A stretch of 64,000 nucleotides of DNA from Fragilaria crotonensis (lineage: Eukaryota; Bacillariophyta; Fragilariophyceae; Fragilariales; Fragilariaceae): NCBI GenBank assembly GCA_022925895.1, contig JAKSYS010000070.1:1-64000 (forward strand), in the 5' to 3' direction. A program made the translations under genes and the position numbers. Position 1 is the stretch's first letter, and every line of letters starts with the position of its first letter. This document shows, one piece after another, positions 17,372 to 54,725 of the stretch. The notes beneath the pieces are model-generated. The model ran no database searches. It saw only the letters and a program-made list of their open reading frames with translations, and was not told the DNA's origin.

Positions 17372-17376
17372 TCACA
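17372..17376. repeat. Target site duplication of the Copia element (left)
   Basis: TCACA directly abuts the left LTR and is repeated directly after the right LTR at 24565-24569. A 5-bp duplication is standard for Copia integrases. Confidence 0.9.
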
Positions 17377-17690
17377 ACTTGAGACTATCACCGGAGATGA
17401 TACTCTAATCGTAGAAAATAGTACGTAGTACCGTAGGAAAATTACTGTAGGAAGGGTTCACACAAAGTACGTTCCGAGAAATTATAAGCTACAGTAAAAT
17501 TCGGCACTCGATCGTATGAACGACAAACTCGTCGAACGTGTCAAATGGCATTTGACATTTCGGGTAGTTCGTACGAAATTAGTTAGAGACCGGACAGTAC
17601 AGCGTATCATGTTTCACATTTCGATGGATGACCTCACAGTAGCACAGTACAACGATGGCATCGCAGTCCAGTGCAGCGTAGGTTTCAATT
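17377..17690 (-). repeat. Copia 3' LTR
   Basis: 314 bp, matching 24251-24564 apart from about five substitutions. As limited by the target duplication, the LTR on the coding strand runs from AATTGAAACC to GTCTCAAGT, without the usual TG...CA ends. Confidence 0.9.
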
Positions 17691-17750
17691 CTCCCTTTCA
17701 TCCATAAATGCTGAAACAAATCACAAAACGTCAGTTAAAATAGATACGAG

Positions 17751-20700
17751 TCAAACGAGGGTTACAGTTTGAACAAGAGACACAAGGGTTTGGGTGGCCG
17801 TTACCATCCTTGGACCAGTTTGCGGACGCGTTCGAAACTCACGATTTAGTCCTTTCGTAAGAAAATCCGCCCACTGCTCCTGAGTGTCGACCTTCACGAT
17901 GGCGACCGTGCCATCACGCACGTGCTGCCAGAAGAAGTGCCACTTCACCTGGAAGTACTTCGTGCGGTTGGTAATGCGTTGGTTTACGGCAAGAAGAAGG
18001 GCGCCATTGTTGTCCTCGAAGACTTGACACTTGATCGTCGACGTGAACGTGCGAGGAAGTTTGATGCCGGAGGCGACTTCCTGGAGCATGGAACGGAGGG
18101 CAAGAGCGTACGCATCGCGGAGCTGAGAGCGGAGTATTCGGCTTCGAGCGTGGACAAGGAGATCTCACTTTGGAGGTGAGATTTCCACAAAATGGGACAT
18201 CCGCCGAGCGTGATGATGTACCCAGTTCGAGACTTCGCGGAGGTCGGAGAACGATCGGGATCACGGCCATGGAGACCGGCGAAGTCGGCGTCGACATAAC
18301 AGTCGAGATCCAGCGTGCCGGTGGGCTTGACGATCATGCCCATGTCGCTCGTGCGATGCAAGTAGCGAACGAGAGTTTTGACGGCGGACGCGTGGCTTCG
18401 TTTCGGGTTGTGACAGAACCTGGCGACCTGGCTGACGGCGAACGCGATGTCGGGGCGAGTGTTTGTGGACAAATAGAGGAGCATGCCGACAATTGAACGG
18501 TAGCTCCACGTTTCCGTCATGGGAGGTCCATCGGGGTCGATTCCAAGTGCGGCCTGAGCGGCTGGCGTCCAATTGTAATTGCTGTCGGACATGCCAGTCG
18601 CTTCCTTGATCTTTTGAATGAGACCCTTCTGAGTGAGGGTCAGGGTCCCATTCGTCGCGTCGCGAGTGAAATTGATGCCGAGGAAGTCGGTGAACGTACC
18701 CTCGCGAGTAAAACTTAAGTTCTTCGCTTCCAAGTTCGCGAAGAGCTTATCAAGGTCGTTTTGGTCGCGATAGGCGATACCTAAATCATCGACGTATAGA
18801 ACGACCATAATTGTATCTTTGTAGAGTAGACACGGGTCGTTAGCGCAGGCTTTAAAGCCTTCTTCACGAAGAGCCTCCGATAGATGCTGGTACCAAAGTC
18901 TTGGTGCCACACTCAAGCCATAAAGGCTTTTCAGGAGTCGCAGGCACGTGGCGTGGCCTCTCGGAGAGTGGAATCCACGTGGCAAATGGATCCAGACTGG
19001 ATCCGAAAGGGCTTGAACGAACGCGCTGCTGAAGTCGATTGTGCAAGTTTTCCAGTTCAAAGTTAGTGAGAGAACTAGGAACAACCGTACAGTACTCCAA
19101 GCCACGACTGGGGCAAAAGTCTCCTGAACGTTTTCTTGGAGATCGCCTCTTACACAGTAGCGTGCCTTGTACTTACTGATAGTACCATCGGGAGTACGTT
19201 TGCGACGAAACACCCAAGTACCGGGCAAAATTCGAGTCTTGGCTTCCGTGATCGGCACTTCGATCCATGTACCGTTTTTCTGCAAACTTTGAATTTCGTC
19301 GTTTGCAGCCTTCAGCCATTTTTCGATGTTGTCGTGATCCGCCATTGCTTCGGCGAAGCTCAGAGTGTCAGGATCGCTGACACTCGCCTTATACGATGAG
19401 GGAGGTGGCGAAAGACACTCGGCGACTTCGTTGTACAGCCATTCGAGGGAAGTTCCGTCGAATTCGGCCATGTATCCGTGTCCTTGTTGTCCGTCGTATC
19501 CGAGGCGGACAGGTGCCGAACGATTGCGAGTGGAGCGACGAGGTTCGTGTTTAACAGGTGTGCTCTTTGCTTTTGTTGCTTTCGGGACGACTGGTTGCTC
19601 GCTCACTTTGTTGTCGCTTTCGTTCGCAGGACGAATTGGAGTCGGCGACGATGGGAAGAGTTTGACTGGAGTTGGAGTCGGGAGTTGAGGCGCAATCGGC
19701 GTAGGCGGTTGCGGAGTCGCCTCCCTTGGAGTCAGCAACGGAGTGGCAAGGGGAGGAGGCACAACGACTGGTGGTGGCGTCGCGATTTGCTCCCTTGGAG
19801 GCGGCAACGGAGTTGACAGCGGAGGCGGAGCGACTGGGAGAACCTGCGGAGGAGTCGCGTTGTCGAGAGCGGTTGCGACGCGTTGCATCTGGGAGAGGAG
19901 CTCGTTTGCTTGCTCGTAGTCAGTTGACTCAACAATCAACCTTTCTTCGTCTTCGTCGTCGAGGACGTACTGAAACGTAGAGTCTTGGAACATTCGTTTC
20001 CAGCTGTCGTCGTTGAAGTTCGGAAGGTCGTCGACGGAAGCGGGAACGGTGGCGAACCAGTCGTCGAAGACGATGTGAAACTGTGGGGTAATGTAACCCG
20101 TTTGTGGATTGAGAACGAGAGGGACCGAGCTGGCGTGTTTGTCGGAGAATCCGAGATTGACGGTGCGAGTTGAGCGAGGAGTCCAACGTGGCAATTTCTT
20201 GCCGTCCGAAATCATTTTGTCGAGGACGTATACTGGACATCCCCAAACGTGGACGTCCATCAATTTCTTTTGCTCCCAACGAGTCTTTGTGAAGACGTCG
20301 TGCGGGGAGAGGCCAGTTCGTGGGTCGGGCATGTGGTTCACTAGGAACACAGCATGCTTGACGGCGAGGGGCCAAAGTGTGGGGTCGGCGACATCCGGCC
20401 AATGGATGGCCGAATGCAGCATCATGGTTCGTGCGATCGCCATGATGGTTCGGATGTTGCGTTCGGCGATCCCATTGTGATGGTGAGCGCCGACGCCGGC
20501 GAATCGGATGACTTGTTGGAACTCGGCGAGGTTGCGAGAGAACTCGGCGGACGTGAACGTTTTCGAGTTGTCGGCGAGATACTCTTGCGGCGTCACTCCT
20601 GTGTTGCGACACATTCGCTCAAAACTCTCTTTGCCTTGAGCGTTTCGTGGGAGTTCAAACTTACTTGATGCTCGACAAAAATAAACCCGGAGGCGTGGTC

Positions 20701-21248
20701 GACGAAGATGCAACCACCGGTATACATGTCGTCGAGTTTCGTTTTCCAGCGGAGGTAAGTAGACGTCCACGAGTGCTGCAAATAAAATGGTCGACCGAAA
20801 TGCGTTGACCTGGGAGGAGATTGTCTGTTTTAAGAGCGTGCGCTCTATCTTTGACAACAGACGAAGGCGTCGTGCCAGGAATTGGACGTCAATGTTGTTT
20901 GCCATATTGGCAGGCAGCGCATTTTGGGAACGAGGTAAGTCGACATGCGGCGGTTTGCAATCGGCGACTTTCTTCCGTTTTGCTGACGACACCGGAACGC
21001 AGGATGAACTGGACCTTCTTGAAACCGACGTGACCCAAACGATAGTGCCAACGAAGCAATTCTTTCTCTGCTTCGTTGAGGTTGAGGTTTCGTTCGTGAA
21101 CGGTATTCACAATCGAAACGAGAGCGTCGGCGGCCTTGAAAGGATCGGTTGCGTTGTACGCTTCCGACGTTGGGAGATTGTTCTGCGGGTTGACGTTTGC
21201 AGTGACGGGTCCTCGGTTGACGTCGTTCGGGACGCCACTGAGCGTCAA
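17751..21248 (-). pseudogene. Copia pol: integrase, reverse transcriptase, RNase H (interrupted)
   Basis: Integrase zinc domain at 21100-20900 (RWHYRLGHVGF with CAACQYGKQ: the H-H-C-C set). The catalytic core follows, with DNSKTF and GIAERNI (Asp and Glu of D-D-35-E). A 1002-codon open frame covers the core, a Pro-rich linker, and the reverse transcriptase: TCTIDFSSAFVQA (motif A), LKSLYGLSVAPRLWYQ (motif B), VVLYVDDLGIA (motif C, YVDD). RNase H shows CYVDADFAG and STLEAEYSAL. A final frame change near 18090 leads into the end of RNase H (QWADFLTKGLNREF) in another frame, ending at 17751. Most of pol is intact; the breaks lie at both ends. Confidence 0.9.
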
Positions 21249-21276
21249 ACGATTCGGTTCGATGGTGATCGTTTCG

Positions 21277-23923
21277 TCAGGGTAAGTCTGGAGGAGACTG
21301 GACGTCGAGAGGAGTCGGACTTTGATGTTGGGAACATGAAACGCGGGGACCTTGAGGAGTCGAAGGTTTCAAGCTGATCGTGGACAGCCCAAGTGACTTC
21401 GCCTTGGCCTTTAATTTGTAGACCCTTCGCGATGCCTTTAGCTGCGTGATCGTTCCGGGCGACGTGACGGGGCCTTCGAAATCGGAGATGTCGGGCGTGA
21501 TCGAAATGCTTGCGCCCGAGTCCCAAATGATGGGGCTCGTGTTTGCTTTGGGTCCGAGGGCTTCTCGCATGCGAGCGGGAGCCTGGAGAGCCATGCGAAG
21601 CGGCGTCGAATGGCATGCCAGATGAACGTGCGAGAGGATTTTGTTGGCGGCGGCACGTTGGTGGAACGTGAGCGGAGCGATTGCGAACGGGTCGGGCGAG
21701 TTGGCGGGTGCCACAGGGCAATACTTCGCGGTGTTGTCGGGTGCCACAGGGCAATACTTCGCGGTTCGTGGCGACGAACGTGGGCGTTTGGAGCACCAGG
21801 AAGGACACGAACGCTTGGTTTTGGTGTATCCCTCTCCCTTTTGGCCTGTGGGAGGCGGCAACGGTGCAGGGCGACGAGAATTGCGAAGCGAGTCAGCACG
21901 ACGTTGAAGACGGAGTGCGCGTTCTTTGAGAGTCTCGAAGTGACGAAAGCCATCGCGCTCAGCGACCGTAGGAGGTCGCGAAGCGACGTATCCCTGTTGT
22001 CGGAGACGGAGGGGGTACGAACGGTGTAGCTTGTTGACGCGAATGCCAGAATTGAAGCGTGGCGGAGCGAACGACTTCTTGAGGAGTCGCGAGAAGCGAC
22101 GACGTTGAAGACGAGTGAGCGGAGGAGGAGATGAGGGAGCCGTCGAAGCAACGGGAGGTTGCTGTAGAAGCGTTGACGGGAAGACCGAGAGAAAGAGAAG
22201 AGTGACCCAAACGGTAGGAGCGAACGCGAGCGTTGGGTGGCGGAGCAAAACTTGGTGAAGATTGTTGGCGACCCAAGCCAAAATGGTCGACCATGGAATG
22301 GCGGACGCAAGGTAGATAGCCAAAGTAACCAAATTAGGAACAATGGCACAGATAGCGAGGGAAAGAGCAAAAAGTAGCCATGGGTTCGCGCCTCGGATGA
22401 GGGTTAAGAGCGAACGAGAAGAAGACGCAACGTTTGGTTGGACTGGGAAGTCAAGCAACCAAACAGAAGGATCCGGCGCCAACATGCTGAGATTTGCTCT
22501 TGGCGACGGTGCCGGAGCGGGAGGACGACGTTCTCCACCGGTGTGAGTGGCGGTCGTGTGCGTGACGGTCCAACGACGACACTTTTCGCACCAGTTGAAG
22601 GTTTTATCCTTCACTTTCTTGGAATTGCTAGTTCCGGGAAGTGGTGGAATTGTGCGCCAGGATTTATGTTTGTTGGTGCGATCCTGGCGGGACCCAGAGG
22701 GGGAGGACGATCCGGACTTACGATTGAGCTCCGGACACTTGTTCGCCCAATGACCGGGTTTTCCACACTTGTGGCAATTGCCCTTCTTCGTCGTCGTTTC
22801 AGTCCCGGATGCCTGGGACTGAATCAGCGTAAGTACCTCGGCTCGGGAGATACCTGCGGGGGCAGTTGCGACATTACCAAACGTCGCAGACGGAGCTCGG
22901 ACATCAGGTGCATGACTCGCTGGAGGCCATTCCTTTCTGTCAAATTGCGTACGGTACGCGTCTTCAGCTTGGCGACAAATATCTTGGAACGTCAATTTCT
23001 CGGCGACCATGTGAGCATGGGCGCCTGACTTTCCTTGTACCCAATGTCAAGGAGCGCCTGATCAAGTCGCTGCTTCGTCGAACGGAGAGGAAAGCGGAAG
23101 TCTTCGTTTCCGCTCCTCCGGCCAAAGGAAAGTCTTGAGCATCGTGAGCGTGAGGTTGTGGTCGTACTGACCTGCCGTCGTGAGCTCACGTGCGTCCTTG
23201 CGATAATCGGCGGCGAGGGCTTGGTTTTCGCCGGCGTACTGGGACGGGTGGCGAGCCTTGATCGCGGCCTTCAGGTCTTCAAAGCGCTCGATCGACGTCG
23301 ACTGGATCGTCTTGATCAGCTGAAGCCAGACGACGTGAAACGAGTCGTCGTCGTCCATTTTCTCTTTGATCTTGCTCATGAGAGCGGGATCGAGAGACGA
23401 AGAAGGAACTTGGTGGCGGCGAGGTCGTTCGACTTGTCATACTTGTCGTAACGAAGAATCTGCTGGGAGCTGAGAGTCTTTGCTGTCGCGACGGTGTAGC
23501 GGAGTGGCTCCTGACGACGTTCGTCATCACGGAGGAGCTTTCGGGATCGGGAGATAAGCGATGGTATCCATCCCACAATCGACGAGATGGTCCCAAACGG
23601 CGTTCTGGAAGTCTACGAGACTGCTCGCTTGGGTAAATAGGGTCGTCATGCCGGTACGACGAAAGTTGTACCCTTTGTGAGGCGGAGGCATGGACAGGGC
23701 GGAGTTGATTTGGTGACGTGATGTCGTCGGCGGCGCTCGGATCGAGGCCGACCCAACCAGGAGCTGGCTTACCGCCAGTCCAAGCGGACCAATCATCCCT
23801 GGAAAGGGAGACAATGTTGCCCATAATGGGCTTATCGGGCCTATCAGAGGCGACGATAGGGTCGGAGACAGGTGGCGTCGGAGACGCGGTGACGGGGTCG
23901 GAAGTTGGAGTCGGAGACGCCAT
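21277..23923 (-). pseudogene. Copia gag and protease region, frameshifted
   Basis: Gag starts at MASPTPTSDPVTASPTP, changes frame near 23570 (LVDCGMDTIAYLP) and again near 23400 and 23050, then is open from 23010 to 21277. Visible there are the zinc knuckle CHKCGKPGHWANKC (CX2CX4HX4C, near 22740), two or three hydrophobic segments (SLAICAIVPNLVTLAIYLAS, WVTLLFLSVFPSTLL) unusual for a Gag, and the protease active site IIWDSGASI near 21520. A 33-bp tandem duplication at 21705-21765 repeats 11 codons (CPVAP...AKY). Product: capsid, nucleocapsid and aspartic protease. Confidence 0.8.
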
Positions 23924-24250
23924 CTCGGAGAGATCAGAAGGAATAGCGAACTTGGAAAGGTCTTAGAAGAGCAAAGCACGGCGTGCTTGTAGATAAGATA
24001 GGTAGCCTAGTTGGTAACTTAGGCGCTCGGAGAGACTTGCTTGTAGGTTGGAAACCGTAGAGTAGAAGATAGTCAACGGAGTTGACTCAGAGCTGCAGCG
24101 TAGGCGATTGCGGAGCAATCGGGGAGTAGATCCTTGGAAAGGATCAGCCTGGGTGTCCTTGGAAAGGAAACAATGAATTCCTATAGAGAGGAATTGGCTT
24201 GCCTGGAAGGAAGCGTGAGGGGGTTAGCCTATAGATTGGGCAAAATAACC

Positions 24251-24564
24251 ACTTGAGACTATCACCGGAGATGATACTCTAATCGTAGAAAATAGTACGT
24301 AGTACCGTAGGAAAATTACTGTAGGAAGGGTTCACACAAAGTACGTTCTGAGAAATTATAAGCTACAGTAAAATTCGGCACTCAATCGTATGAACGACAA
24401 ACTCGTCGAACGTGTCAAATGGCATTTGACATTTCGGGTAGTTCGTACGAAATTAGTTAGAGACCGGACAGTACAGCGTATCAAGTTTCACATTTCGATG
24501 GATGACCTCACGGTAGCACAGTACAACGATGGCATCGCAGTCCAGTGCAGCGTAGGTTTTAATT
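24251..24564 (-). repeat. Copia 5' LTR
   Basis: 314 bp, the partner of the LTR at 17377-17690. It would hold the element's promoter, reading leftward. Its outer end is followed by TCACA at 24565-24569. Confidence 0.9.
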
Positions 24565-24646
24565 TCACAGGTGCGCGTTTACTTGTGGTGTACTGTATGA
24601 TAGTACTGGTACTACAGTCGGTAGATGCAAAATTCAAATCGCTCTG

Positions 24647-25650
24647 TTGACACCGAGTGAAGGTGATAGGTTGGTACCATTACTTGGAAGCAAATCTCAT
24701 CACTCATCAAGCACCATCTCCCCCTTACAACGTCCTCTTGAAGGACGACTCGTCATTTCCGTAGCTCTGTGCTTCTGTCGGCGATGCGAACCACCCTCGC
24801 TTCTCTGCTGTACCAAGACGACATGTGGGCGAGAAGGCATCGAAGTACAGGTACTTTGGACCTTATCCGAAGTATGAAGACATGACAATAGTTCTGGATC
24901 ACATTGAGGAAGCCTATGATTTGAGGGCCAAGTCGTTTGATGCTCTCTATGGATCGGGAACGCAGAATGAGTACAAACTACTATTTGATCGGGTTTTGAG
25001 TGAGGTTTTCGACGGAGGCAATGGAGGGCAGTCAATGATACCGTTGCGGGCGGAATTTGAGGACGCTTCGCTGCTTTTTGGTAGCACGTACAATAAATGC
25101 AGAGATGTTGTCGCAGTCGGACAGAGTAAGGAAGGGGCGAGTGACGCGGTAGTGCATGTGCTACAACTTCGAAACGGTCTATTGGCGAAGAGATTCTCTG
25201 ACGCCTGCACGCTGCCGAAGAATTGCCAAGGGGCAGAGGATCTAGCCTCTGTAATAGAATCCGTACTCATTCAACGGCACTTCCCCTCTGGTGAAGCATC
25301 GGCGATGGGTGGATTCAGCTTCTTCCCAGATGAAGTTCTTTTGCAGTACCCCATGGGATCCACCGCCGAGTTGACGTATGCCATTAGGAGTCATGCTGCT
25401 TCGAGGGGTCCTCGACAACAAGTGATGAGAGGGCCATTGAATTTGCATATGCAAATGCCAAAACAGGTGGCCATTGATAGCATGATGGAAAGCGATCGTG
25501 GTGTCACGAAAACATCTTTGGATGGAACTGGTATCAACGAACTGGAACGCCTTCTCACCTCGGACAACCCGCAGACACGAATTGGTTGTTACGATGCTGT
25601 ACGGTTAAGTGGTTATTGTCATTAGGAAACAAGAGCCGACACTATATCAA
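24647..25650 (+). pseudogene. Partial decayed duplicate of the uvrC part of the UvrB-UvrC gene
   Basis: This stretch aligns with about 34978-36040 on the same strand. The middle (24830-25590) is nearly identical base for base ([19 protein letters not shown], then [13 protein letters not shown]). It lacks the GIY-YIG nuclease domain and everything after the start of the C-terminal endonuclease domain. It differs by a rearranged first 120 bp, an internal deletion corresponding to about 35705-35750 and another of about 40 bp near 25600. An ORF of 266 codons survives from 24825, but it lacks both catalytic sites. It begins 77 bp beyond the right end of the Copia target duplication. Confidence 0.9.
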
Positions 25651-31995: not shown

Positions 31996-32580
31996 CTTGC
32001 CGGGTGCCTAATCCAACACCAGCTCACACTTTATCTATCCTATGACTATAGGACTTGTACCAGGTACTGTATGTAGACTGTAGACCCTTGTACCGTACAT
32101 ACAAATGAAAATCTATTCCGCTCTTCGAAGCAAACAGCAAACGCAGATGCCAAGAATTTTTTGCTGTTTCTGCGTAGAGAGATGTATACAAAAAAAAGTG
32201 TGTATATACAGTGTATTGTTTGCTGCTGGTGGAAAAATGACACTCCAGTATCTGAATAAGATAGAGAACTTGCCACCGACAATCACGTGTACTCAGAGAA
32301 AACGTATCGAACCCCTACGACAGCTGCAGATGTTGTGTCGGAGGTCGGAGCACAACAACACGGAACACATCTATCTCCCTCCCTCGTGTTGATTTCGCCG
32401 GAGTTAGAAAGAGAGATCCGAACCTCAACACATCCCCGACTTGAAAGGCGATGTGAAAGTGTTGATCCAGTAGAAACTCGAGCTTGTTGTACTACTGTTA
32501 GACGAGTGATAAGGCCGCAATCAAACCGAGGAAGCCTTACCTTGATGTTTCCAAGGACATCCCGAGTGCGACGACTGATA

Positions 32581-35500
32581 ATGACCATCACATTTTCGTT
32601 GGTATTGCGTCGTGTGGCTTCGTTCAACACGGCAGCTACCCTGACTGCGTTTGCTCCCCGGAAGAAGACCCAATTCCATCTCACCTCATCAGTCACGGGC
32701 GTATCCATCCTGAATCGCAGGGACGGTCCTCAACTACTGCGGCAAAGACATTTCTCAACCGCTCCCCTTTCGTCAGCAAGAGATTCCAACTTGGAACGAG
32801 TGCGACCCTTCCAAGTAACATCCTCATATGAACCAACGGGTGACCAACCGCTTGCGATACAGCAGCTTGTGAAACAGGTGCAACAAGGAGACAAGTTCAG
32901 TATCTTACAAGGCATTACAGGAACTGGCAAAACTTTTGTTATGTCACACGTAATTGCTCACTGCAACAGACCCACTCTTGTACTCTGTCACAATAAAACA
33001 CTGGCAGCACAGCTGGCCCGAGAGCTTCGATCCTTCTTTCAACACAATTCCGTCGAACTGTTCGTCTCCTACTACAATTCCTACACCCCAGAGTATTTTA
33101 TCGAAACAACTGGCACCTATTCGGAAAAAAAGTGTTCTGTCAACGACGAGATTGACGCCCTCCGCCATCGTGCGACTCGCGCTCTGTTGGAACGGAAGGA
33201 CGTTATCGTAGTCGCGTCCGTCTCGTGCATATTCGGATTGGGATTGCCCGCCGAATACCTAGACGCGTCCACCGCTATCGCCGTCGATGATGAAGTGGAC
33301 CCACAGGACTTGGTTCGTCAGTTGAAGGCGATGCTCTACGTACGACCGGAGGGGTGCGATGACATGTTGCGGGGCACTTATCAGTTGTCCAGGGGAAACA
33401 TGTTCGAAGGGACCTCGAAACTCATATTGAGTCTTTGGCCACCGCATGAGAAGTATCCCATACGGATCGAATTGGAAACAGACAACAAATCCGTGACACG
33501 AATCAAATCCATATTGTCCACCAATGCATCCGGTGGGTTGGCACCTCGAGAATCGTTACACATTTTCCCCGCCAAACACCATGTCGTATCGGACCAACGC
33601 TTGGAACAGGCATGTACCTTGATTGAGCAGGAAATGAAGGACCGCGTGGAAGAACTTAACCAAATGGGCAAACACGTCGAGTCGACACGTTTGCAGCAGC
33701 GTGTCATGAACGATTTGCTCTTGTTGCGCGAAACCGGATACTGTCCTGGCGCCGAGAATTATTCTCGGCACTTGGCCGGTCGTGCTCAAGGTGAACCGCC
33801 CGATACCTTGATTGACTACTTCAAATTGGCAGGCGATGGAGATTGGCTCTTAGTGGTGGATGAGTCGCATGTGACGTTGTCGCAGCTCAAGGCAATGTAC
33901 TTCGGCGATCGCTCTAGAAAACTTCGTTTGGTGAAGCATGGGTTTCGACTTCCTTCCGCTCTTGATAACCGACCTTTGAAGGATGAGGAGTTCTGGAGCC
34001 AAGTGTCACAAGCTGTGTTCGTCTCTGCGACTCCTTCATCAAAAGAGTTGGCATTGGCACAGAGCTCTCCGGTTGAAATGATGATCAGACCTACGTTTGT
34101 GTGTGATCCGACAATTGAGTTGAGATCTCCCGATGGACAGCTTGATCATCTAGTCCAGGAGGTCAAGGTGAGAGCCCTTAGAGGCGAGCGTACCTTGGCA
34201 ATGGCCTTGACGAAACGAGATGCTGAAGACCTGTCATCGTACATGTTAGAACATGACGTCAATGCAGCTTACATTCACTGTGACCTTACAACGCAAGAGC
34301 GATCAGATGCGCTAAAAAGCCTTACAAAATGGAGACATTGATTGCTTAGTCGGTGTGAATTTGCTGCGCGAAAGGCTTGGACCTGCCGCAAGTGTCGTTG
34401 GTTGCGATTCTCAATGCCGACTCACAAGGTTTCTTGCGATCCGAAACAGCTCTGTTGCAAACGGTTGGCCGTGCTGCTCGCAACACGAATGGAAAGGCGA
34501 TATTTTATGCGAAAAGGATCACTGATGCCATGCAGCGTTGCATCGATGCCACCAACCGACGACGAACTGTGCAGCTAGCATACAACGAGGAGTATAATCA
34601 ATCGTCGATATCCACCAAGGGCTCCAGCATGATGTCACTCTTTGACCTTCTCAAGGAGGAAATAGAAAGTGAGAAGGCGGTGGAGATCTTTCAGCCCACA
34701 TCCAAAAGGGAGATCAGAGGAGGAGTTCCGCATGAACTACAACTGGCTGAATTGCCATCGGGAAGCTTGTCACTTGACTCACGTTCCAGCGTCATCACTG
34801 ATCACCTGCCAAGTAAACCTGGAGTATACTTCTGGAAAGATGCTGCTGGCAACATCTTGTACATAGGAAAAGCGAAGAAACTACGCAGCCGCGTGAAATC
34901 GTACCTCGGCCCGGGCACAAGACATAGCCCAAGGATAAAGATCATGCTTGCTAAAGCCACCGCCGTGGAGTACGTGTTAACACCGAGTGAACGGGATGCG
35001 TTGGTATTGGAATCAAACCTCATCAAGCACCACCTCCCCCCATACAACGTCCTCTTGAAGGACGACTCGTCATATCCGTACATTTGTGCTTCTGTTGGAG
35101 ATGCGTACCCTCGCTTCTCTGCTGTACCAAGGCGACAAGTGGGCGAGAAGGCATCAAAGTATAGGTACTTTGGACCCTATCCGAAGTATGAAGACATCAA
35201 TACGGTTCTGGATCACATTGAGGAAGCCTATGATTTGAGGGCCAAGTCGTTTGATGCTCGCTATGGATCGGGAACGCAGAATGAGTACAAACTACTATTT
35301 GATCGGGTTTTGAGTGAGGTTTTCGACGGAGGTAATGGAGGGCAGTCGATGATACCGATGCGGGCGGAATTCGAGGAAGCTTCGCTGCTTTTTGGTAGCA
35401 CGTACAATAAATGCAGAGATGTTGTCGCAATCGGACAGAGTAGGGAAGGGGCGAGTGACGCGGTAGTGCATGTTCTACAGCTTCGAAACGGTCTATTGGC

Positions 35501-36545
35501 GAACAGATTCTCTTACGCCTGCACACTGCCGAAGGATTGTCAAGGGACAGAGGATCTAGCCTCTGTAATAGAATCTGTACTCATTCAACAGCACTACCCC
35601 TCTGGTGAGGCATCGGCGATTGGTGGATTCAGCTTCTTCCCAGATGAAGTTCTTTTGCAGTACCCTCTGGGATCCACCGCCGAGTTGAAGAGGGCGATAA
35701 GGAGTGCTCGAACTCTTGCCGAACCGAACCGAAGTTTCCCGACGGACGTGCGTCATATTGCTTCGAGGGGTCCTCGACAACAAAGTGACGAGAGGGCCAT
35801 TGAATTTGCATATGCAAATGCCAAACAGGTGGCCATTGATAGCATGATGGAAAGCGATCGTGGTGCCACGAAAACATCTTTGGATGGAACTGCTATCAAG
35901 GAACTGGAACGCTTGCTCACCTTGGATAACCCGCCGACACGAATTGAGTGTTACGATATCAGTCATACTCAGGGTGAGGTTGCTGTCGGGTCGCGAGTGG
36001 TTTTTGTCAATGGGAAGCCAGAGCCGGCACTGTATAGACGGTTCAATATTCAATCAGAGGTAGGAAACGACGATTACGCAAGCCTGGAGGAAGTACTGCA
36101 GCGACGATTTAGTCGGGTTTGGCTCAACGGCCAAGGTGGGCTAGTTGGGGAAGAGGACCCATGGGCAATGCCTGATTTAATTCTCATTGACGGTGGAGTT
36201 GGTCAATTAAGAGCTGCCATCAAGGGAATGGCGAAGTCGAATGTGTTCCCTCGCTTTACTGATACCGTTAAAGGCAGGGGCAACGATGTGATTTTTGAGG
36301 ACGACGACATGGACCTCGATTCCGGTGCTGCCAACGGCATAGATTTGCAACCAATGAGAGCCTTTGTCCCAATCTGTTCCCTGGCAAAGAATATGGAAGA
36401 AGTCTTCGTTTATGGACGACCGGATCCTGTCAACGATACACCAGATTCTCCCGGTCTCCTTCTATTGAGGTCTTTGAGAGATGAGAGTCATCGCTTTGCA
36501 CTTGCGTCGCATCGCAAGCGCCGAACAGCTGAGTTAATTAAATAG
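32581..36545 (+). CDS. UvrB-UvrC fusion, nucleotide excision repair (two apparent single-base frame breaks)
   Basis: One gene encodes bacterial-type UvrB followed by UvrC. From the ATG at 32581 the first 30 residues end LTAFAP, a plausible secondary-plastid cleavage site. UvrB shows Walker A GITGTGKT (residue 111), the damage-sensing hairpin region [17 protein letters not shown] (residue 427) and VFVSATPS (481). After residue 575 the conserved block is spread over three frames: one extra base in AAAA near 34329 and one in AAA near 34370. It then reads [13 protein letters not shown] and QTVGRAARN. UvrC follows with GIY-YIG nuclease (PGVYFWKD ... [10 protein letters not shown]), then RIECYDISH and PDLILIDGG of the C-terminal nuclease, and ends [12 protein letters not shown]. 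The two C-terminal helix-hairpin-helix motifs of bacterial UvrC and a clear UVR motif are missing. If the breaks are real it is a pseudogene; if not, it makes a dual-incision repair enzyme of about 1,320 residues. Confidence 0.85.
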
Positions 36546-37020: not shown

Positions 37021-39780
<2,760 letters not shown>

Positions 39781-41199: not shown

Positions 41200-41629
41200 C
41201 ATAGGACTTAATCCTGCGTTTGAACGATTGTGTCATGTCGTACACACGACAAGGAGGTTGTCATGCTGACATCATACCAGCTATATTCTCTTCGGTGTGT
41301 CCAATCTTGCTTGATAATGAAAGGCTACTTGATGTATGGTCATGTCAAGTTGGATGAATCATGAAATAATCATGAGATGCATGATTTACTTGGTTGCGCG
41401 AACGTATCTTGCAATGCTATCATGGTTTTTAGAGCAGTATCAGAGTATAATCTTACTCCAAAATGTTTTCAGTCGTGTTAGTTGGCTGACTACTTGTATT
41501 TCCCGTAGCGTCCAGTACCTTTGTGACGTGGTTTTCGACTCAGCCTCACAAATCTTTCGGTTCTCCACTCGTTGACGCACCAGATGCTGACCAAACCACC
41601 TTCGCACTCTTTGCAGAGCATACAGGAGC
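41200..41629. other. Spacer without a recognised gene
   Basis: 3' end of the DHAR gene and 5' flank of the HAD-ankyrin gene. No credible upstream exon was found. Confidence 0.4.
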
Positions 41630-42805
41630 ATGAAGCCTTGGAGGGCGTTAACATTGTGCCTATCATCCACAATGAAGAAACGACCACTCCTTCGCGGTGT
41701 TGTCTTGGACATGGATGGTACCTTGACAGTCCCGAACCTCGACTTCGCTGAAATGTATCGTCGATGTGGGGTAGACAAGAAGGACGATATCCTAAAAGTG
41801 CTGGCTGCCATGCCGAGCGAGGAAGCGGCAAGCAGGTACAAGATCATTGAAGACATGGAAGATGAAGCTACTCGAACGATGAAACTCATGCCAGGTGCAC
41901 CAGAACTCATGATGTGGTTGCGAGCTCATAAAATCCGAACAGCCGTAGTGACACGCAATACAATGAAATCAGTGAAGGCGCTGGAAACTATGCTGGGAAC
42001 ATTGGATATTATTGTTGCGCGTGATACGCATGCAGGCATTCTGCCCAAACCACATCCTTCAGCGATGCAGTATATTTGCAAAGAATGGAATATTACCGAT
42101 CCTTCCACTCTCATCATGATCGGCGACTCTCCTGCGAACGATGTTGCATTCGGCAAAGGTGCAGGGACTTTGACAGCTCTTTTAAATTCAGGACGACAAC
42201 AATTCGACGCCGACAAAGCACCTACAGAATCTGCAGACGTTGTTGTTGATCTACTTTGGGATCTTCCTCATCATCTCTGGTCACTCTTCAAGATTGATGG
42301 ATCCCTTGGAACGAATACGCCGCTGAAGAAATACGACACTCCTGCTCCATGTTCTCCAACAACTCGCTCTGCTGTCGAGGGAAACATTGACGGCATGACC
42401 CCGGATCAGCTTCACGTACCAGACAAATCTGGCAACACTCCACTAATCTGGGCTGCTGACGCCGGCAATGATGATGTAGTGCAACATGTGCTGCAAGATT
42501 CCGCAGCATCCATCAACCATCGAGGCTACTTGGGAAGCACCGCCCTTTCTCGAGCCGCGCGACGCGGGCATGTCCGCATCTTGGAGCTCCTCCTTCAAGC
42601 TGGCGCGGATCCCAACATTTGCAACGACAAGATGCAGTATCCACTTCACTTTGCGGCCTTCAAAGGACACATGCCGGCTGTCCTGGTATTGCTGGCATGC
42701 GAGAAGCTTAACAAGTGCGTGCTGGATCGCAAGGGTCGAATCCCTGCGTACGATACCAAGGACGACGCGATAAGAGATGTTATCTTGGCATCTATGGACT
42801 CGTAG
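41630..42805 (+). CDS. HAD-superfamily phosphatase fused to ankyrin repeats
   Basis: 391 residues, one exon. All four HAD motifs are present: VVLDMDGTLT (motif I with both Asp nucleophile and acid/base, about residue 25), AVVTRN (motif II Thr), LPKPHPSAM (motif III Lys) and MIGDSPANDVAFG (motif IV Asp pair, about residue 163). The small helical cap between motifs I and II makes it phosphoglycolate-phosphatase-like. From about residue 265 come three ankyrin repeats (GNTPLIWAADAGNDDVVQHV, GSTALSRAARRGHVRILELL, YPLHFAAFKGHMPAVLVLL). The likely role is dephosphorylation of a small phosphometabolite or protein, with the repeats as a docking module; the substrate is not known. An ATG 14 codons further in (MKKRPLLRG) could also be the start. 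Confidence 0.85.
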   Translation: MKPWRALTLCLSSTMKKRPLLRGVVLDMDGTLTVPNLDFAEMYRRCGVDKKDDILKVLAAMPSEEAASRYKIIEDMEDEATRTMKLMPGAPELMMWLRAHKIRTAVVTRNTMKSVKALETMLGTLDIIVARDTHAGILPKPHPSAMQYICKEWNITDPSTLIMIGDSPANDVAFGKGAGTLTALLNSGRQQFDADKAPTESADVVVDLLWDLPHHLWSLFKIDGSLGTNTPLKKYDTPAPCSPTTRSAVEGNIDGMTPDQLHVPDKSGNTPLIWAADAGNDDVVQHVLQDSAASINHRGYLGSTALSRAARRGHVRILELLLQAGADPNICNDKMQYPLHFAAFKGHMPAVLVLLACEKLNKCVLDRKGRIPAYDTKDDAIRDVILASMDS

Positions 42806-45534: not shown

Positions 45535-45943
45535 CTTTGCGTACCCATGGGTCAAGATGGATAAGCAGGAAGGGACAGGCAGTAACTTGGTAAGTACACA
45601 ATGTCCTGACGATTTCAATGTCTCTAACGCGGTCTGCACTTCGACAGAAAAAACGACGTACCGACAACGGTCGGTGTTTGGTTGTCGAGCGTCAGGTCAC
45701 CGCGTACTGGAATTGGAAAGCCCTCTGAAAAGGGGTCCTCGTCACCATGTCATTAGGTACCCAGAAGGACAATGCTTACCGACAGAAACCGGTTACTTGG
45801 AAAGTCCAAGCCTTACCGTTTACTTGAAAGCAGCTTGTCAGAGCAAAGTGATTTGCTCACTCTTTTTGGTTCTCTCTGCGTTTATCCTCGGACCGTACAC
45901 CCAAGGCCTTTCGACAGAAAGACCAATCTGCAGTTTCTTTTTC
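45535..45943 (+). repeat. Split direct repeat A1
   Basis: 409 bp, matching 54275-54683 with about four substitutions. It ends five bases before the ATG of the Gag-like ORF, so it acts as the element's 5' leader and probable promoter. Confidence 0.95.
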
Positions 45944-45947
45944 TATC

Positions 45948-48374
45948 ATGTCGGACGCGGACTCCATGCTTGATGACCTTATGCGGGATACTACGTTGGT
46001 GTCTTTCGCTGCGCTGGCTGAGGGCGCGCCTCGCCCTCCCGTTCCTCATTTATCTACATCGGCTCGGATGGAGGGGGTTGGTGTTAGTGGTGAGTTTGAA
46101 GGAATGTTACAAGGTACGACGCGAAAGGATTCAAAACTTTACTCTGTTGTTAGCGTGAACGGACAGGATTTGTCTGTGTGCTTTGGTGTTGTGGGTGCGG
46201 GTCATGCCTCGTTTTGTGTTTGCAAGGGTTGTAATGTTAGGTCGCATGCCGAAAAGAAAGTGTCGTTTCAGGGACAGCGAGCTTCGTATGTGTTCATTTG
46301 TCGGGATAGTACTACCAACGCAACTATGTTCTTGGAGCCTTGTTTGAACAACGAAGAAATAGTGCCGGGGGAAGTCAGGCGAGAGTGGAACACTAGGGCG
46401 AGAACGTTGGCAGAGTGGGTTACGGCCTTTCAGGCTGTAGACAACGCAGACAATTATGAAGCAACGGTGGAAGACATTAAGGAAGAGGCGAATTTATTGA
46501 CAAAGGTGGAAAAGTTTAGGACTCCGTTGAAGAAGAGAAAGGAAGAGGACATAGCATGGGAAGACGACACATTGTGCGAGCTTGTGTTCGCTATGCACAC
46601 CCGAACGTTGCCAGTGGACAATACTCCACAGTTAGAAGAATTGATTGCCAGCAAGACGATGGAGAAGGGTTTGGTAACTCGTGCGGTTGCGAGGTTGGAA
46701 ACGAGCGTCGTAACGCACGGGGGTGTTTTGTCGGAGGTAGCTGGACTGTCGCACAAAAGGTTCTTGGTTAACGAAAGGGATTTGCGTGTGATGTCGGGAG
46801 TGGTTCAGAAGGTTCAAATTTCGGTGGGACACCCTGTTGAACTTGACGCTAGGTTTGACGCCCCAACGTTGTGGAGTTCCACATCCTTCATAGCCGATGA
46901 AGTGATTAGGATGGACGGTGGTTTGACGGCGTTGGAAGAATCGATGGGCCCGATGAAAACTACGGTTGACAAGGTGATGACGGAATGTGAGAGACTTGCT
47001 AACCTGGCTACCGGTGATAAAATGTTGAAAGTGTTGATCATGGTATCCAACAAGGTAAAGGAAGCATCTGAGCAGATTGTCATGTTGAAAACTAAGGTGC
47101 AAGAGTTGGAATTTGATCTTGAGGAATCGCGCTCTCGGGACGGAAAGGTTGACAGCTCCAAGGAAAGCTCCAAGCCACCCGTGGACGCGATGGATGAGTT
47201 GATCAACATGTTGGATATGGGGATTAGGGTGGAAGAGAAGACCGATTCTTTCGTTACCCCAGAGAAGTCAGTACGATTGCCAGAGAGGGTGGTGAATGGA
47301 CGTGGTGAAGGAGAAGTTATCAGACGCCTTGAGGCGGAAATCAAGATGTTGACCGCTGACGTTGGCATGCTGAAGGCTTGTTCAGAAGACAAGTCGGTGA
47401 AATTTGGTGGGTTGGGACTGAGGTCGATGAAAGAGTGTCACGAATGGATTGACAAGAACTTTGCGGGGTACCGATATGGTCTGATAATGGACCCCCTCTT
47501 AATGTTGGATCGAATTTTTGGATCTGATGATGCGGAGGTCGATAGTCAGTTCAAGACATTGGAGTCGAGAGTAAAATTGAAAATCACCACGGGAGCAGAA
47601 GCGGCAGCTATAAAGGCGTTATATTTTAAGAGGCCAAGGATTTTTCACAAGGGACGAGTCTCAATGTCATCTGAGAGAAACAAGTCAAAGTTGAATAAGA
47701 TCCCAGATCACAAAGTATGGAAGGCGGGAGGAGAGGGTGTGAGGAATCACATCGTGCAGCAAATGAACTTGCTTCACACTACGCTGTCTCACGATATCAA
47801 CTATGCTTTTGGTGGTGATTTGTCTCTGGGTAAAGCTCAACTACTTGCGATGATGAGTTTGAATGCCACTATCACTTTTCTGACCCAGTTGCTTGGGTTT
47901 GTGGACGCCATTTACGAGAAGCTGGTAGTTTATTCGAAGTTCACGGCCGATCAAGGATGGTCTCTGACTACCCAGATTCTGGACAGAGTGTGTGAGGATC
48001 TGTTCGCGCCGAAGGAAGGAGTTGCGGCGGCGATGACGGTGGAAGAACCTGCGTCAATCTGTGCGCACATGTTGTGGTCGTGTTTCAAAACTCACGACGT
48101 GATGGCCGTATATATGGAACATAGTTTCGAGAACCATCCGGCCATCTCTGCAGAGTATGTTAAGTTCCTGGCAATGAACTCAGGATATGACAAGGTCGAG
48201 CGGATGGAAACTCTAGTCAATGGGATGAAGGCCTCGGTGGACAAGGCCTCAGTGGATGCGGCGAAGGCTCGGTCGATTGCAGATGGGGCGTCGAGTCAGG
48301 GAGGAGTTCTGTCTAAGGGACTTGACGCGATGGCCAAACGCGTGAACAAATTGGAAGACAAGGTGTTCAAGTGA
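45948..48374 (+). CDS. DIRS element ORF1 (Gag-like)
   Basis: 808 residues, beginning MSDADSMLDDLMRDTTLVSF. A Cys/His-containing segment lies near residue 90 (FCVCKGCNVRSHAEKK), possibly metal-binding. Residues about 300-410 contain heptad-like helices (ASEQIVMLKTKVQELEFDLE), and another helical/coiled stretch closes the protein (GLDAMAKRVNKLEDKVF). No enzymatic motif is visible. Its position first in the element and its coiled coils suggest the structural Gag-like protein. The ORF is intact. Confidence 0.7.
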   Translation: MSDADSMLDDLMRDTTLVSFAALAEGAPRPPVPHLSTSARMEGVGVSGEFEGMLQGTTRKDSKLYSVVSVNGQDLSVCFGVVGAGHASFCVCKGCNVRSHAEKKVSFQGQRASYVFICRDSTTNATMFLEPCLNNEEIVPGEVRREWNTRARTLAEWVTAFQAVDNADNYEATVEDIKEEANLLTKVEKFRTPLKKRKEEDIAWEDDTLCELVFAMHTRTLPVDNTPQLEELIASKTMEKGLVTRAVARLETSVVTHGGVLSEVAGLSHKRFLVNERDLRVMSGVVQKVQISVGHPVELDARFDAPTLWSSTSFIADEVIRMDGGLTALEESMGPMKTTVDKVMTECERLANLATGDKMLKVLIMVSNKVKEASEQIVMLKTKVQELEFDLEESRSRDGKVDSSKESSKPPVDAMDELINMLDMGIRVEEKTDSFVTPEKSVRLPERVVNGRGEGEVIRRLEAEIKMLTADVGMLKACSEDKSVKFGGLGLRSMKECHEWIDKNFAGYRYGLIMDPLLMLDRIFGSDDAEVDSQFKTLESRVKLKITTGAEAAAIKALYFKRPRIFHKGRVSMSSERNKSKLNKIPDHKVWKAGGEGVRNHIVQQMNLLHTTLSHDINYAFGGDLSLGKAQLLAMMSLNATITFLTQLLGFVDAIYEKLVVYSKFTADQGWSLTTQILDRVCEDLFAPKEGVAAAMTVEEPASICAHMLWSCFKTHDVMAVYMEHSFENHPAISAEYVKFLAMNSGYDKVERMETLVNGMKASVDKASVDAAKARSIADGASSQGGVLSKGLDAMAKRVNKLEDKVFK

Positions 48375-48524
48375 TGGTGGGAGGAGAGTCAAGAGATCGA
48401 GGAAGGCAATAACTCGAGAGAGAATAAACATAGTAGATGCACACCAGCGTCTACGGCACTCCTCAAGAATGATGCGACCTTCGAACTGGGACTCTCCAAA
48501 CACATAGGAGGCGGCAAACTAGGC

Positions 48525-51500
48525 GTGGAATCTAGGCCACCATATGAACGCTTGAAGCTCGTGAAACGGGGTTACAGAGAAGCCATTGTGGAGCGGGTAT
48601 GTGGAATGGCATTCGAGGGGCTACCAGTTTGGGCGTGGGCAATTAGTCTGCCAGAGTGGTCCGCTATTTGGGTTAGCGAGGTGGATAACATGCGCCTGCG
48701 ACAGTGCCACGAGAGCACGTGGACTTGGATGAAAGACAAGCTGAGGGTGGTCAAACCAGCAGATATGGAGTCTTTAGGAGGTGTGGACGTGTGGTTTGCT
48801 AGTGGGTCGTTGAAGTTTGTGACGGACCCGGGCATAGGTCCGAAGGATACGCCAAGTTTAGTGTGGCTTAGCAAAGGAAGTCGAAGAAAACCTGCAAATC
48901 CAGAATGGCAGTGGATAGCAGTTTCACATGCGAGTGTAGGAGGGACTACAACCGCAAGCGGAATGTTTGGGACTCGGGGATTTGGTCCGGTACATGTCCC
49001 TCTTGATCCGATACGTCGCTTCATTGGGCATGTGCTCAAGTACTCGGAACGACCTGTCCCCTGTTCGGTACCGGTTCAGGAGGATCACTACACAGTGAAT
49101 CATCGCCTTTCGCTGCACAAAGTGGACAAATCAGTGGTGTTCTCGACCGGTTTTTCACGAACGGGTTGGGGAAAGCGACCTTTGGTGGCGTTGGAACTTG
49201 CTCAAGCTTTTGATTTGCCCTCCTACTTGGGCTGGTCAAACCACTTTGCGACGGAGATAGCTCCATTGCATTTATTTCGAGTCACGGCGGAAGCAGCGCT
49301 GGGAACTTTGGCACCTCGGGATCCTAAAATAAGCCAGAGCCGCCACCAGCGACCGTGCATACGACCAGAGGAATACTTGGACGTTAGTCCTGCGGATGCA
49401 ACGTGGATTCCTGGCATAAACAAGTGGTTACCAGGGGCGTGGTCATTGGCTCTCATCGCAGATAAGGCCGTCAAAGCGGACAATGCAGCGGTTGATTTCT
49501 CCCCGTGGCACAACCGAATTAGATTGATTTTTTCCTGTCCGGTGCAAAGTTTGACTTCGCTCGAGCTCTTGGGTGTGCGAGTTTGGAGGCGGACACTGTG
49601 CAAGTCGTTTAACGCCTATTTGTCACGCGAATATGGTAAAAACTGGAACGCGTTACTTTCGGGTGACGTTCTCAGCCAACGACAAGGCACAGGTGGTGCG
49701 ACGATGGATAAACGTTGCAAGATTTCAAGTGGCTATGCCACAGGAAACGTCGAGGGGGGAGTTGTGGGTGAGGGCGAAGTGGTTGGAGAGGTGGAGCGAA
49801 CCACTGAACTTCTGCGGGATTTAGAAAAAGGACGGGCGGTCCTAAGTCAAGTGCTGCAGAGCACGTGGTGGGAATGGACATTTGGGTCTGCTCTCTACTT
49901 CTGGAGGTGGAATGGTATAGAGCAACAACGGGCGGCTAGAGACGGTATGAGGAGTTACGTTCAGAGCCCCTTGCCTGTTGGTAGGCGTCCAAAAAGGGTG
50001 AAGGCAAACCCCGAAGTACGGGATATGGTGGTAGGAAAGATAGAAGGGATGGCGAGGCGGTACTACCTTGAGTCTGGGCATGTGTCGAACTCCTTGGATT
50101 ATTTTGCTGTGCCAAAAGGGGACGCGGACGTAAGAGTCGTGTTTGACGGATCCTCGTGTGGGCTTAACAAGGCTCTTTGGTCCCCAAACTTTTTTCTACC
50201 TACTGCTTCTTCTGCGGCTATGCTGTTATCCTTCGGCACCTGGATGGCCGATATGGACTTCGAGGAGATGTTCTTTCATAACTTTCCTATGGAGGACCGG
50301 TTGCGAAAGTGCTCGGGAGTAGAAGTGGAAGGGGATGGGAAGGTCTCTAAGTTGTTGAGGTGGACGAGAATGTTCATGGGATTGCGACCGAGCCCGTATT
50401 GTGCTGTCAGATACTACTACTGGGGCGAGGAGTTTGCTCGGGGTGATCCGGGTGAATCCTCAAACCCAATGGGGTATGATGCCATCAGGTTGAACCTACC
50501 GGGTATGGATGACTATGACCCGCAATGGCCAAAGGTTATGAAGTGGGTTAGAGATCGGGGCGTCGTGGCAGGGGATGTCATAACTTTCGTGGACGACGTT
50601 AGGATAACGGGTTTCTCAAAGGAGAATTGCCATCAAGTTCACCGCCAGTTCGCCAGTCGAATCCAATGGTTGGGAATGCAGGATGCACCGCGAAAATTCA
50701 GGCCTCCATCACAACTTCAGGCAGGTGCTTGGACTGGAGCTATCTTTAAGATCACGCACGACACAATCTCGAAGTCTGTCTCTCAGGAAAAATGGGACAA
50801 GGGTAAGGAGATGATAAACAGGCTGCGGAGTATATGCGAGACCTCCTCGGACTTTCGGCCTATGATAAACCGGAAGGAACTGGAGAAGGAAACCGGCTTT
50901 CTGAATCATTTGGGTATGACGTTTGAGGTGTTGGTCCCATACCTCAAGGGATATTACTTGACTCTGAATTCGTGGCGCTCACATCGCGATGAAGGAGATT
51001 GGAAGATGACGGACAAACGTTGGAGGCGCATGTGGTTTGATCGGTTCGAATCGGGTGATGTCTCAAAAGAAGAATTTGACGCGTGACTGGAGGATACGGA
51101 TGGTGACGAGAATGCGCCGATCGAGGTGAAGGCCAGTCCAAGTTTAATTGATGACGTGAAAGCGCTATCGGCCATTTTTATGGAAACGGACGTCCCGGAA
51201 GTTGGCATACGGTGTCGAAAGGTCTTAACAGTTATCTTCGGATTTGGAGACGCCTCAGGGACAGGCCTGGGTGCGACATTCACCTGTGGATCGGGATTCA
51301 ACTTTCGGATCGGGGTGTGGGGTTCGAGGGAGGATCCCGAATCCTCAAACTGGAAAGAGTTTACTAACGTGGTAGAGTCGTTGGAAGAGGAGGGCCTGGA
51401 AGGAAACCTGGACCATGCGGAGGTGTACATGTTTACCGACAATTCAACGGTGGAGTCATGCGTGGCGAGGGGATCGTCATCGTCTCCAAAGTTGTTAGAG

Positions 51501-52265
51501 TTGGTAGTGAGGTTACAATTGCTTGCAATGAGAGCTGGGATCACGATTCATGTGTTCCATGTCGCAGGAACTAGGATGATAGCTCAGGGAACAGATGGCG
51601 TTTCCAGAGGATATCTGGGCCATGGAGTGATGGCCGGACAGACAATGAGCGCCTTCATTCCAATCCACTTAGGAGCGGTGGAGAGGTCGCCGGTGGATTT
51701 AGTGCCCTGGATCCAAGGGTGGGCAGGAAAGGAGGCTAATCTGTTGGATGAAATGGGTTGGTTTCAGCAGGGGCACGATCTAGAAGGTTGGCGGAAGGGA
51801 GAAGACTCGGTTTCTCGACCGATAATAAATCCAGGCAGAATGATTCATATTTGGTCTCCGGCACCTATGGCAGCCGAAGTGGCTTTGTCGGAATTGAGAA
51901 AGGCGCGAATTAAACGACAAAGGGCTGCGCATATTTTCGTTTGTCCCCGGTTGTGCACAAGCCAGTGGCTACGACATTTGTTTAAGGTCGCAGATTTCGT
52001 TTTTGAGGTTCCGATCGGATCGAGTGTATGGCCCGTGGATATGCACGAACCCTTGCTAATAGGCGTTCTCTTTCCCTTTATCAGAGTTGACCCTTGGCAA
52101 CTGCGAGGTTCCCCAAAGATGCACGCAATGGGAAGGCAATTGCGTAAAATGTTCCAAGAGTCGGAAGTGGGCGCATGCGATCTTTTGCGCAAATTTTGGG
52201 CATGCTGTTTCAACCTCCAAGGTTTGTCGAAATCTATGGTGCGGAAGCTGTTATACATCAAGTGA
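48525..52265 (+). CDS. DIRS element ORF2: reverse transcriptase and RNase H, with one in-frame TGA
   Basis: A single frame runs the whole length apart from a TGA at 51084-51086. The reverse transcriptase shows VRVVFDGSSCGLN, MADMDFEEMFFHNF (motif A), MFMGLRPSPYCAVRYY (motif B) and TFVDDVRITG (motif C, F-V-D-D; about residue 688). After the TGA, RNase H shows FGFGDASGTG (first Asp), NWKEFTNVVE (Glu), MFTDNSTVES (Asp) and AQGTDGVSRG (last Asp), an arrangement typical of the DIRS order. The stop lies in the linker between the domains; it is either a nonsense mutation or a readthrough point. No ATG is obvious at the very start, so the first codons are uncertain. It ends 16 bp before the recombinase ATG. 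Confidence 0.88.
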
Positions 52266-52281
52266 TCAGTTGGGTTTTCAC

Positions 52282-53615: not shown

Positions 53616-53789
53616 GGAAGGGGTTTGGAATCGGGAGCTGCGCATCTGAGAGGGGTGCGAGATTCTCATCCAAGTCGGAAGAGCAAACAGGGAGGTCGAT
53701 GCTTTTCCGTCTTCAAAGTCGCTTACAAGGCTGAGTCAATACGAAGAATTTCCTTGACAAATCAAATCAAGGTCTGGTGTTCTCGTGGT

Positions 53790-54683: not shown

Positions 54684-54725
54684 CCACCCACCATCCCTTC
54701 TTTTCTCCCACACCTTCCGGCGTTG
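54684..54725 (+). other. Pyrimidine-rich spacer between A2 and B2
   Basis: 42 bp almost purely C/T on the plus strand (CCACCCACCATCCCTTC...), present neither after A1 nor before B1. In priming models for split-direct-repeat elements the A2-B2 unit is the template for completing the ends, so this is a candidate priming tract. Confidence 0.5.

Follow-up and report, generated by a model that had tools for sequence, protein, structure and literature searches.

A candidate UvrB-UvrC fusion gene in the diatom Fragilaria crotonensis and its possible role in organellar DNA repair without UvrA

Introduction

UvrB and UvrC are normally joined through contact between their UVR motifs, which together form the docking interface of the two proteins. 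In this work we describe a locus at positions 32581-36545 of a 64,000-nucleotide stretch of DNA from Fragilaria crotonensis (contig JAKSYS010000070.1 of assembly GCA_022925895.1, positions 1 to 64,000; hereafter the window), in which UvrB and UvrC domains follow one another in what we read as a single nuclear gene with an N-terminal extension. We lean, by a little, towards the view that this gene encodes a self-contained organellar excinuclease, one nuclear-encoded polypeptide made up of presequence, UvrB and UvrC that would work without UvrA. Published accounts place the corresponding genes outside eukaryotes. An excerpt of a 2024 paper gives the UvrABC genes as absent from all eukaryotes (PMC11228841), and the 318 UvrC members counted in a 2006 paper comprise 8 archaeal and 310 bacterial proteins and no eukaryotic one, with no UvrB fusion mentioned in the excerpt concerned (PMC1564403). 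Flowering plants, as excerpted from a further paper, encode no UvrA, UvrB or UvrC homologue (PMC6981420). A diatom UvrB-UvrC fusion, if true, would be a direct exception to this published absence.

No report of a UvrB-UvrC fusion was found in a literature search that included fusion wording and had annotations in other diatoms' database entries outside its range; an earlier database annotation of the fusion without a paper is possible. A direct search for close relatives returned no viral contig and one genome contig, L010, which encodes a Paceibacterota UvrC. The collections searched for the same fusion hold no eukaryotes: among 78 IMG/VR loci, 38 open reading frames (ORFs) matched UvrB, 36 matched UvrC and none matched both, and in the phylum of L010 a UvrC match was present in 370 of 379 genomes, the longest open frame among the matches listed being, at 922 residues, shorter than the fusion.

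Organization of the UvrB-UvrC locus

As deposited, the gene is divided between two long open frames. A stop-to-stop frame of 693 codons (32260-34341), with an ATG at 32581, carries a UvrB match from 32809 to 34326, and a frame of 728 codons (34359-36545) begins with a match to the UvrB C-terminus, followed by UvrC. Within the latter, the C-terminal part of UvrB, a 69-codon linker and UvrC make up one open frame without a stop (34374-36545), from the motif QTVGRAARN to the RNase H nuclease. The original prediction that UvrB runs into UvrC with no intervening stop thus holds for the junction and fails for the whole span: no single ORF covers 32581-36545, and frame 1 stops within UvrB at a TGA (34339-34341). 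UvrB motif V lies in frame 2 and the protein from GLDLPQVSL onwards in frame 3. Two +1 shifts are needed, both at A-runs (34314-34318 and 34371-34373) and both inside UvrB, not at the UvrB/UvrC junction. Read through across both shifts, the locus gives 1,320 codons free of any further stop, and the alignment requires no further evident shift.

The identities proposed for the two halves, in contrast, stand as first made. The NCBIfam UvrB profile matched the two ORFs with 586.5 and 113.5 bits, 700 bits summed, against an equivalog cut-off of 743, the gene being split by the frame shifts; the UvrC part scored 301 bits with TIGR00194, above the equivalog cut-off of 285.45; and the first 18 PDB structures that Foldseek returned for a model of the second ORF were all of UvrC. 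These are not chance matches. In the genome, the UvrB profile search matched this locus alone and the UvrC search this locus and a degenerate fragment. This genome is that of a photosynthetic diatom, with silicon transporters and 61 light-harvesting matches, in agreement with the nuclear origin ascribed to the gene. The features of the locus are as follows.

32581-32808 (+): N-terminal extension of 76 codons, a candidate organelle presequence; alternative in-frame ATG at 32545, UvrB homology from 32809
32809-34318 (+): UvrB domains 1a, 2 and 1b and first half of domain 3, in frame 1; PDB UvrB matches with E down to 3.1e-140
33259-33558 (+): degenerate UvrB domain 2, the UvrA-interaction domain
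34314-34373 (+): the two +1 frame shifts, flanking motif V (frame 2) and the frame-1 TGA, from the frame translations
34374-34598 (+): UvrB C-terminal part, in frame 3; PF12344, 47 bits
34599-34805 (+): linker where the UVR motif of UvrB would lie, in the same frame and without a stop
34806-35048 (+): GIY-YIG nuclease domain of UvrC, predicted to make the 3' incision; Y, R and E columns kept, model matches 1yd6
35235-35417 (+): remnant of the UvrC middle region, in which the alignment has all four-cysteine (C4) columns changed or deleted and the UVR motif mostly deleted; the second copy has the same stretch, free of a net indel
35415-36500 (+): UvrC RNase H-like region and endonuclease domain, predicted to make the 5' incision; PF22920 22.0 bits, under the cut-off of 24.3; model matches 2nrt
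36501-36545 (+): C-terminus and stop, without a helix-hairpin-helix (HhH) tail
24645-25595 (+): second copy, degenerate, of a central stretch of the UvrC part, with frame-breaking insertions or deletions (indels) and one stop

The UvrB part

All UvrB helicase motifs are present, namely GxTGxGKT (Walker A), VDESH, SATP and GRAARN. The 502-residue frame-1 part is 44-48% identical to five bacterial UvrBs. The diatom protein shares with bacterial UvrB (PRK05298/TIGR00631) Walker A, VDESH, SATP, motifs V-VI and the region of the damage-probing hairpin; it differs from it in the fusion to UvrC, the candidate N-terminal presequence, the lack of any UVR motif found and a degenerate domain 2. For this last domain, PF17757 (UvrB_inter) fell short of its cut-off of 22.9 with 19.7 bits, compared with 112-127 bits in all three bacterial controls. 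Domain 2 kept 7 of its 15 columns invariant in five bacteria, and the rest of UvrB 182 of 227 (Fisher p 0.006); the corresponding identity ratios were 0.57 and 0.81, and 400 bootstraps gave their difference a 95% interval from -0.39 to -0.07. These counts used five of the six fetched bacterial UvrBs, a frame-broken Microbacterium UvrB being left out. By these measures the predicted UvrA-binding domain of the diatom UvrB appears degenerate.

The UvrC part

The GIY-YIG domain and the C-terminal nuclease domain that had been proposed for UvrC were recovered with PF01541 (33.5 bits) and PF08459 (140.6 bits). The columns of GIY-YIG residues Y32, R42 and E81 and of E. coli D399, D438, D466 and H538, which we take to have catalytic roles in UvrC, are all kept. 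Like bacterial UvrC (TIGR00194), to five members of which it is 31-33% identical, the diatom protein thus combines GIY-YIG and RNase H-like domains with their catalytic columns; unlike bacterial UvrC, it sits behind UvrB in a fusion and has lost the four C4 cysteines (K, L and V stand in columns C154, C166 and C174, and C178 falls in a gap), the UVR motif and the HhH tail. As the original prediction had it, no HhH model matched either ORF and no such tail was seen in the three forward frames translated downstream to 37020, whereas HhH was present in all four UvrC controls. Invariant UvrC columns were defined by six bacterial UvrCs, with L010 set apart; A1 used five of the seven and A2 five of the six fetched bacterial sequences, and A3 comprised 12 of the 29 IMG/VR references together with L010. 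A single-sequence AlphaFold2 model was useless, with a predicted local distance difference test score (pLDDT) of 32, and a 14-sequence model of the second ORF, used in the Foldseek search, reached a pLDDT of 62 and supports only the two nuclease folds.

Loss of the HhH tail alone is not unique to the diatom fusion, since short UvrC-like proteins without it occur in L010 and in nine translated IMG/VR proteins. The C4 columns, checked among these proteins in L010 only, are likewise lost there. The short proteins differ from the diatom UvrC in their length of about 424 residues, in a much shorter middle region and in having no UvrB fused to them. In the IMG/VR set they were observed in contigs L053-L060 and L062-L065 (for example L053:3977-5248); the UvrC of L061 is full-length. 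The fusion is homologous to both UvrB and UvrC and, going by the comparisons above, is likely to work like both, yet it lacks several features that define the canonical proteins and the three-part system.

N-terminal extension and compartment

The first 60 residues of the extension include nine basic residues and one acidic residue, and contain the motifs TAFAP and RQRHF-STA. Plastid proteins of diatoms carry a signal peptide together with a transit peptide following the ASAFAP rule, to which TAFAP comes close; a six-residue pattern for this rule gave no match. RQRHF-STA presumably resembles a mitochondrial R-3 cleavage site, and the hydrophobic moment of the extension is modest (maximum 0.33). 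From the ATG at 32581 the hydrophobic core is weak, and from the in-frame ATG at 32545 it is stronger (11-residue mean 2.46). The plastid-like presequence originally proposed agrees with TAFAP, and less well with the unmatched six-residue pattern and the mitochondrial-like site. Possible destinations of the predicted protein are the plastid, the mitochondrion or both; dual targeting to these two organelles is documented in diatoms (PMC4494062, in excerpt).

Proposed function

In the scheme that we propose, the chain of presequence, UvrB and UvrC would be encoded in the nucleus and imported into an organelle, where the UvrB part would bind and verify distorted DNA by means of its ATPase motor and beta-hairpin and the attached UvrC would cut on both sides of the lesion, 3' with its GIY-YIG domain and 5' with its RNase H-like domain, the resulting oligonucleotide being removed by a UvrD/PcrA-family helicase. 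Because the nuclease would always be attached to UvrB, both halves of the UVR-UVR docking would be unnecessary and could be lost. Because UvrA, the usual loader, was not found, loading might be autonomous, or might proceed through stalled transcription and an Mfd without a UvrA-binding module. The pattern of losses itself predicts that a verifier and a nuclease held in one chain could do without both the UVR-UVR contact and loading by UvrA.

Finding a fused UvrB-UvrC and no UvrA suggests a cut-down bacterial excision repair inside a eukaryote, and the fusion, if true, would be a candidate partner for the alga's Mfd homologue. A more far-reaching version, in which UvrA, both UVR motifs and the UvrA-binding module of Mfd would have been lost together from an organellar, UvrA-free bacterial excision repair, with the single chain verifying, cutting twice and being recruited by itself or by Mfd, is put forward tentatively and with somewhat less confidence than its component enzyme. 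The fused organellar enzyme for damage verification and dual incision, as first suggested from this locus, accords with the fusion frame and the kept catalytic columns, and the plastid-like targeting that formed part of that suggestion is not established.

Several observations weigh against an organellar fusion enzyme acting without UvrA. In the deposited sequence two frame shifts interrupt the gene within 60 bases, on either side of motif V of UvrB; the shifts lie 57 bases apart, and the chance of two independent indels falling so close is about 3%. The targeting signals are ambiguous, TAFAP being plastid-like and the predicted cleavage site mitochondrial-like. The failure to find UvrA does not prove its absence, because completeness of the assembly is uncertain and 10 of the 42 candidates for the UvrA profile TIGR00630 were scored. 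The PcrA/UvrD-family helicase may, we assume, be a nuclear protein of Srs2 type. The codon score of the linker lies below the 95th percentile of intergenic DNA.

A functional fusion could also act outside excision repair, as a structure-specific nuclease-helicase in the maintenance of organelle DNA. Such a role would suit the failure to find UvrA, the degenerate UvrA-binding domain and the loss of the C4 cluster and of HhH, but the protein retains the catalytic columns of both nuclease sites and, outside domain 2, most of the invariant UvrB columns, as lesion verification and dual incision need, and we consider this role unlikely.

Frame shifts in the UvrB part

A less likely reading still is that the gene is a recently dead pseudogene, both shifts being true mutations and no full-length protein being made. 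Two +1 shifts and a TGA fall within 60 bases and strike an essential motif, the nearby partial copy of the gene is decayed, and there is a copia-type retroelement some 8 kb upstream of the gene. Set against this is the long read-through described above, open apart from that TGA and aligned along both UvrB and UvrC. Shifts of this kind are, moreover, common in the assembly: in its HSP70 and CCT/Cpn60 genes, whose conservation makes the expected frame reliable, the 44.9 kb of coding DNA matched holds 14 intron-less frame changes, one of them ambiguous, a count that took 33 of 36 HSP70 rows (three weak ones dropped) and 26 of 26 CCT rows and in which some copies may be pseudogenes. At this rate about 1.2 frame changes are expected in a 3.97-kb ORF, with a probability of about 0.35 for two or more. 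An inverted duplicate on contig C881 also speaks against true mutation, its two arms (L028, 6400-9700; L029, 132700-136400) showing no substitution over 3,228 aligned bases and differing at four sites, each by one base and all in the length of A/T runs, a pattern typical of consensus error.

Because the HSP70 and CCT genes carry similar shifts and the C881 duplicate differs only in A/T runs, we infer that the two shifts in UvrB are assembly errors, and their closeness suggests one poor patch of consensus. An intron across the shifts was considered and rejected, since the intervening stretch encodes the conserved UvrB motif V. As an observation in its own right, the C881 duplicate is a warning about assembly quality wherever a pseudogene is called in this genome.

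UvrA, Mfd and helicase genes

The UvrA-specific profile PF17760 gave no candidates and no matches in the assembly, with 13 of 14 positive controls detected, and with TIGR00630 (cut-off 729.8) the highest score among the 10 of 42 candidates scored was 34.9 bits, all 14 controls being positive and 12 of them over the cut-off. A bacterial-type Mfd homologue is present (661 bits, cut-off 800), its match being confined to profile positions 338-904. It contains RID, helicase and TRCF domains, and a domain search of it did not find the UvrB_inter module. The UvrA-docking module thus appears to be missing from the predicted diatom Mfd. The genome also holds a PcrA/UvrD-family helicase (498 bits, cut-off 911), which could take part in the proposed pathway. 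A close parallel is the plant organelle transcription-repair coupling factor (TRCF/Mfd), which occurs without UvrABC: in the diatom, too, a bacterial-type Mfd is present and no UvrA was found, but the diatom has UvrB and UvrC domains, whereas flowering plants have neither these nor UvrA (PMC6981420, in excerpt).

An ordinary three-part UvrABC system, with a UvrA missed by the assembly or by the search, would remove the need for loading without UvrA. The assembly has gaps and its completeness is uncertain, and the ten of 42 TIGR00630 candidates scored were all weak matches. The PF17760 search, however, returned nothing while the same kind of search finds the bacterial-type Mfd, and an Mfd without a UvrA-binding module and an eroded UvrB domain 2 are both explicable by loss of UvrA; we regard a missed UvrA as improbable.

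The junction between UvrB and UvrC

UvrB homology extends to 34598 and UvrC homology begins at 34806; the intervening 207 bases are in frame and free of stops (chance 0.073). After 34599, one of ten UvrB columns invariant in five bacteria is kept, and the region is of low confidence in the model (pLDDT mostly below 50 at residues 81-129 of the second ORF). The linker has a codon score of 0.011 per codon, compared with an intergenic median of -0.172 and 95th percentile of 0.045, and appears coding-like by this measure, which is not decisive alone. A Pfam search found the UVR motif (PF02151) in neither ORF at E<=1, as had been predicted for the UvrB end, while all three UvrB controls and three of the four UvrC controls have it (the Bacteroides UvrC does not). 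The degenerate second copy (24645-25595) also shows the loss of the UvrC-side motif, again with no net indel, so that this loss is unlikely to be an assembly error. The loss of both docking motifs is consistent with a fusion. That UvrB and UvrC are two separate neighbouring genes, seemingly fused by an indel error that removed a stop or aligned the frames, is very improbable even though indel errors do occur in this assembly, since the 207 in-frame, stop-free bases, whose codon score lies between the intergenic median and the 95th percentile, would probably leave no room for the end or terminator of one gene and the promoter and second presequence of the next, a separate UvrC would have no presequence, and both UVR docking motifs are lost, as fits a fusion.

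Second UvrC copy and neighbouring elements

The degenerate second copy of the UvrC part is 86.5% identical to the main copy at the DNA level and lies about 80 bases outside the 3' long terminal repeat (LTR; 24248-24564) of a copia-type LTR retroelement on the minus strand (17374-24564), which has 317-base LTRs 98.1% identical to each other and an ORF for an RVT_2 reverse transcriptase. The second copy may have been copied or moved with this element. Leaving out its ragged ends, mismatches between the two copies numbered 10, 13 and 31 at the first, second and third codon positions, respectively, over 280 sites each, and the ratio of nonsynonymous to synonymous rates (dN/dS) was 0.40, a pattern that continued selection on the main copy would produce.

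The neighbour of the UvrB-UvrC gene, arranged tail to tail with it, encodes a class I (E and Q) tRNA synthetase that carries tRNA_bind as its C-terminal domain (37024-39180, minus strand), and one ORF at 41591-42802 combines a HAD-family hydrolase with ankyrin repeats. Further on, a large element (45535-55220) has direct repeats around long ORFs, the repeat pairs being 45535-45943/54275-54683 (99.3%) and 53790-54283/54726-55220 (99.0%); its ORF of 903 residues (48375-51083) had no Pfam match at E<=1e-5. Elsewhere in the genome, several silicon-transporter (SIT) domains were found in single open frames, three at C97:29749-33762 and two at C771:21664-24330, a trait that points tentatively to an araphid pennate diatom; multi-SIT genes are reported for Synedra in an excerpt of published work (PMC6114903).

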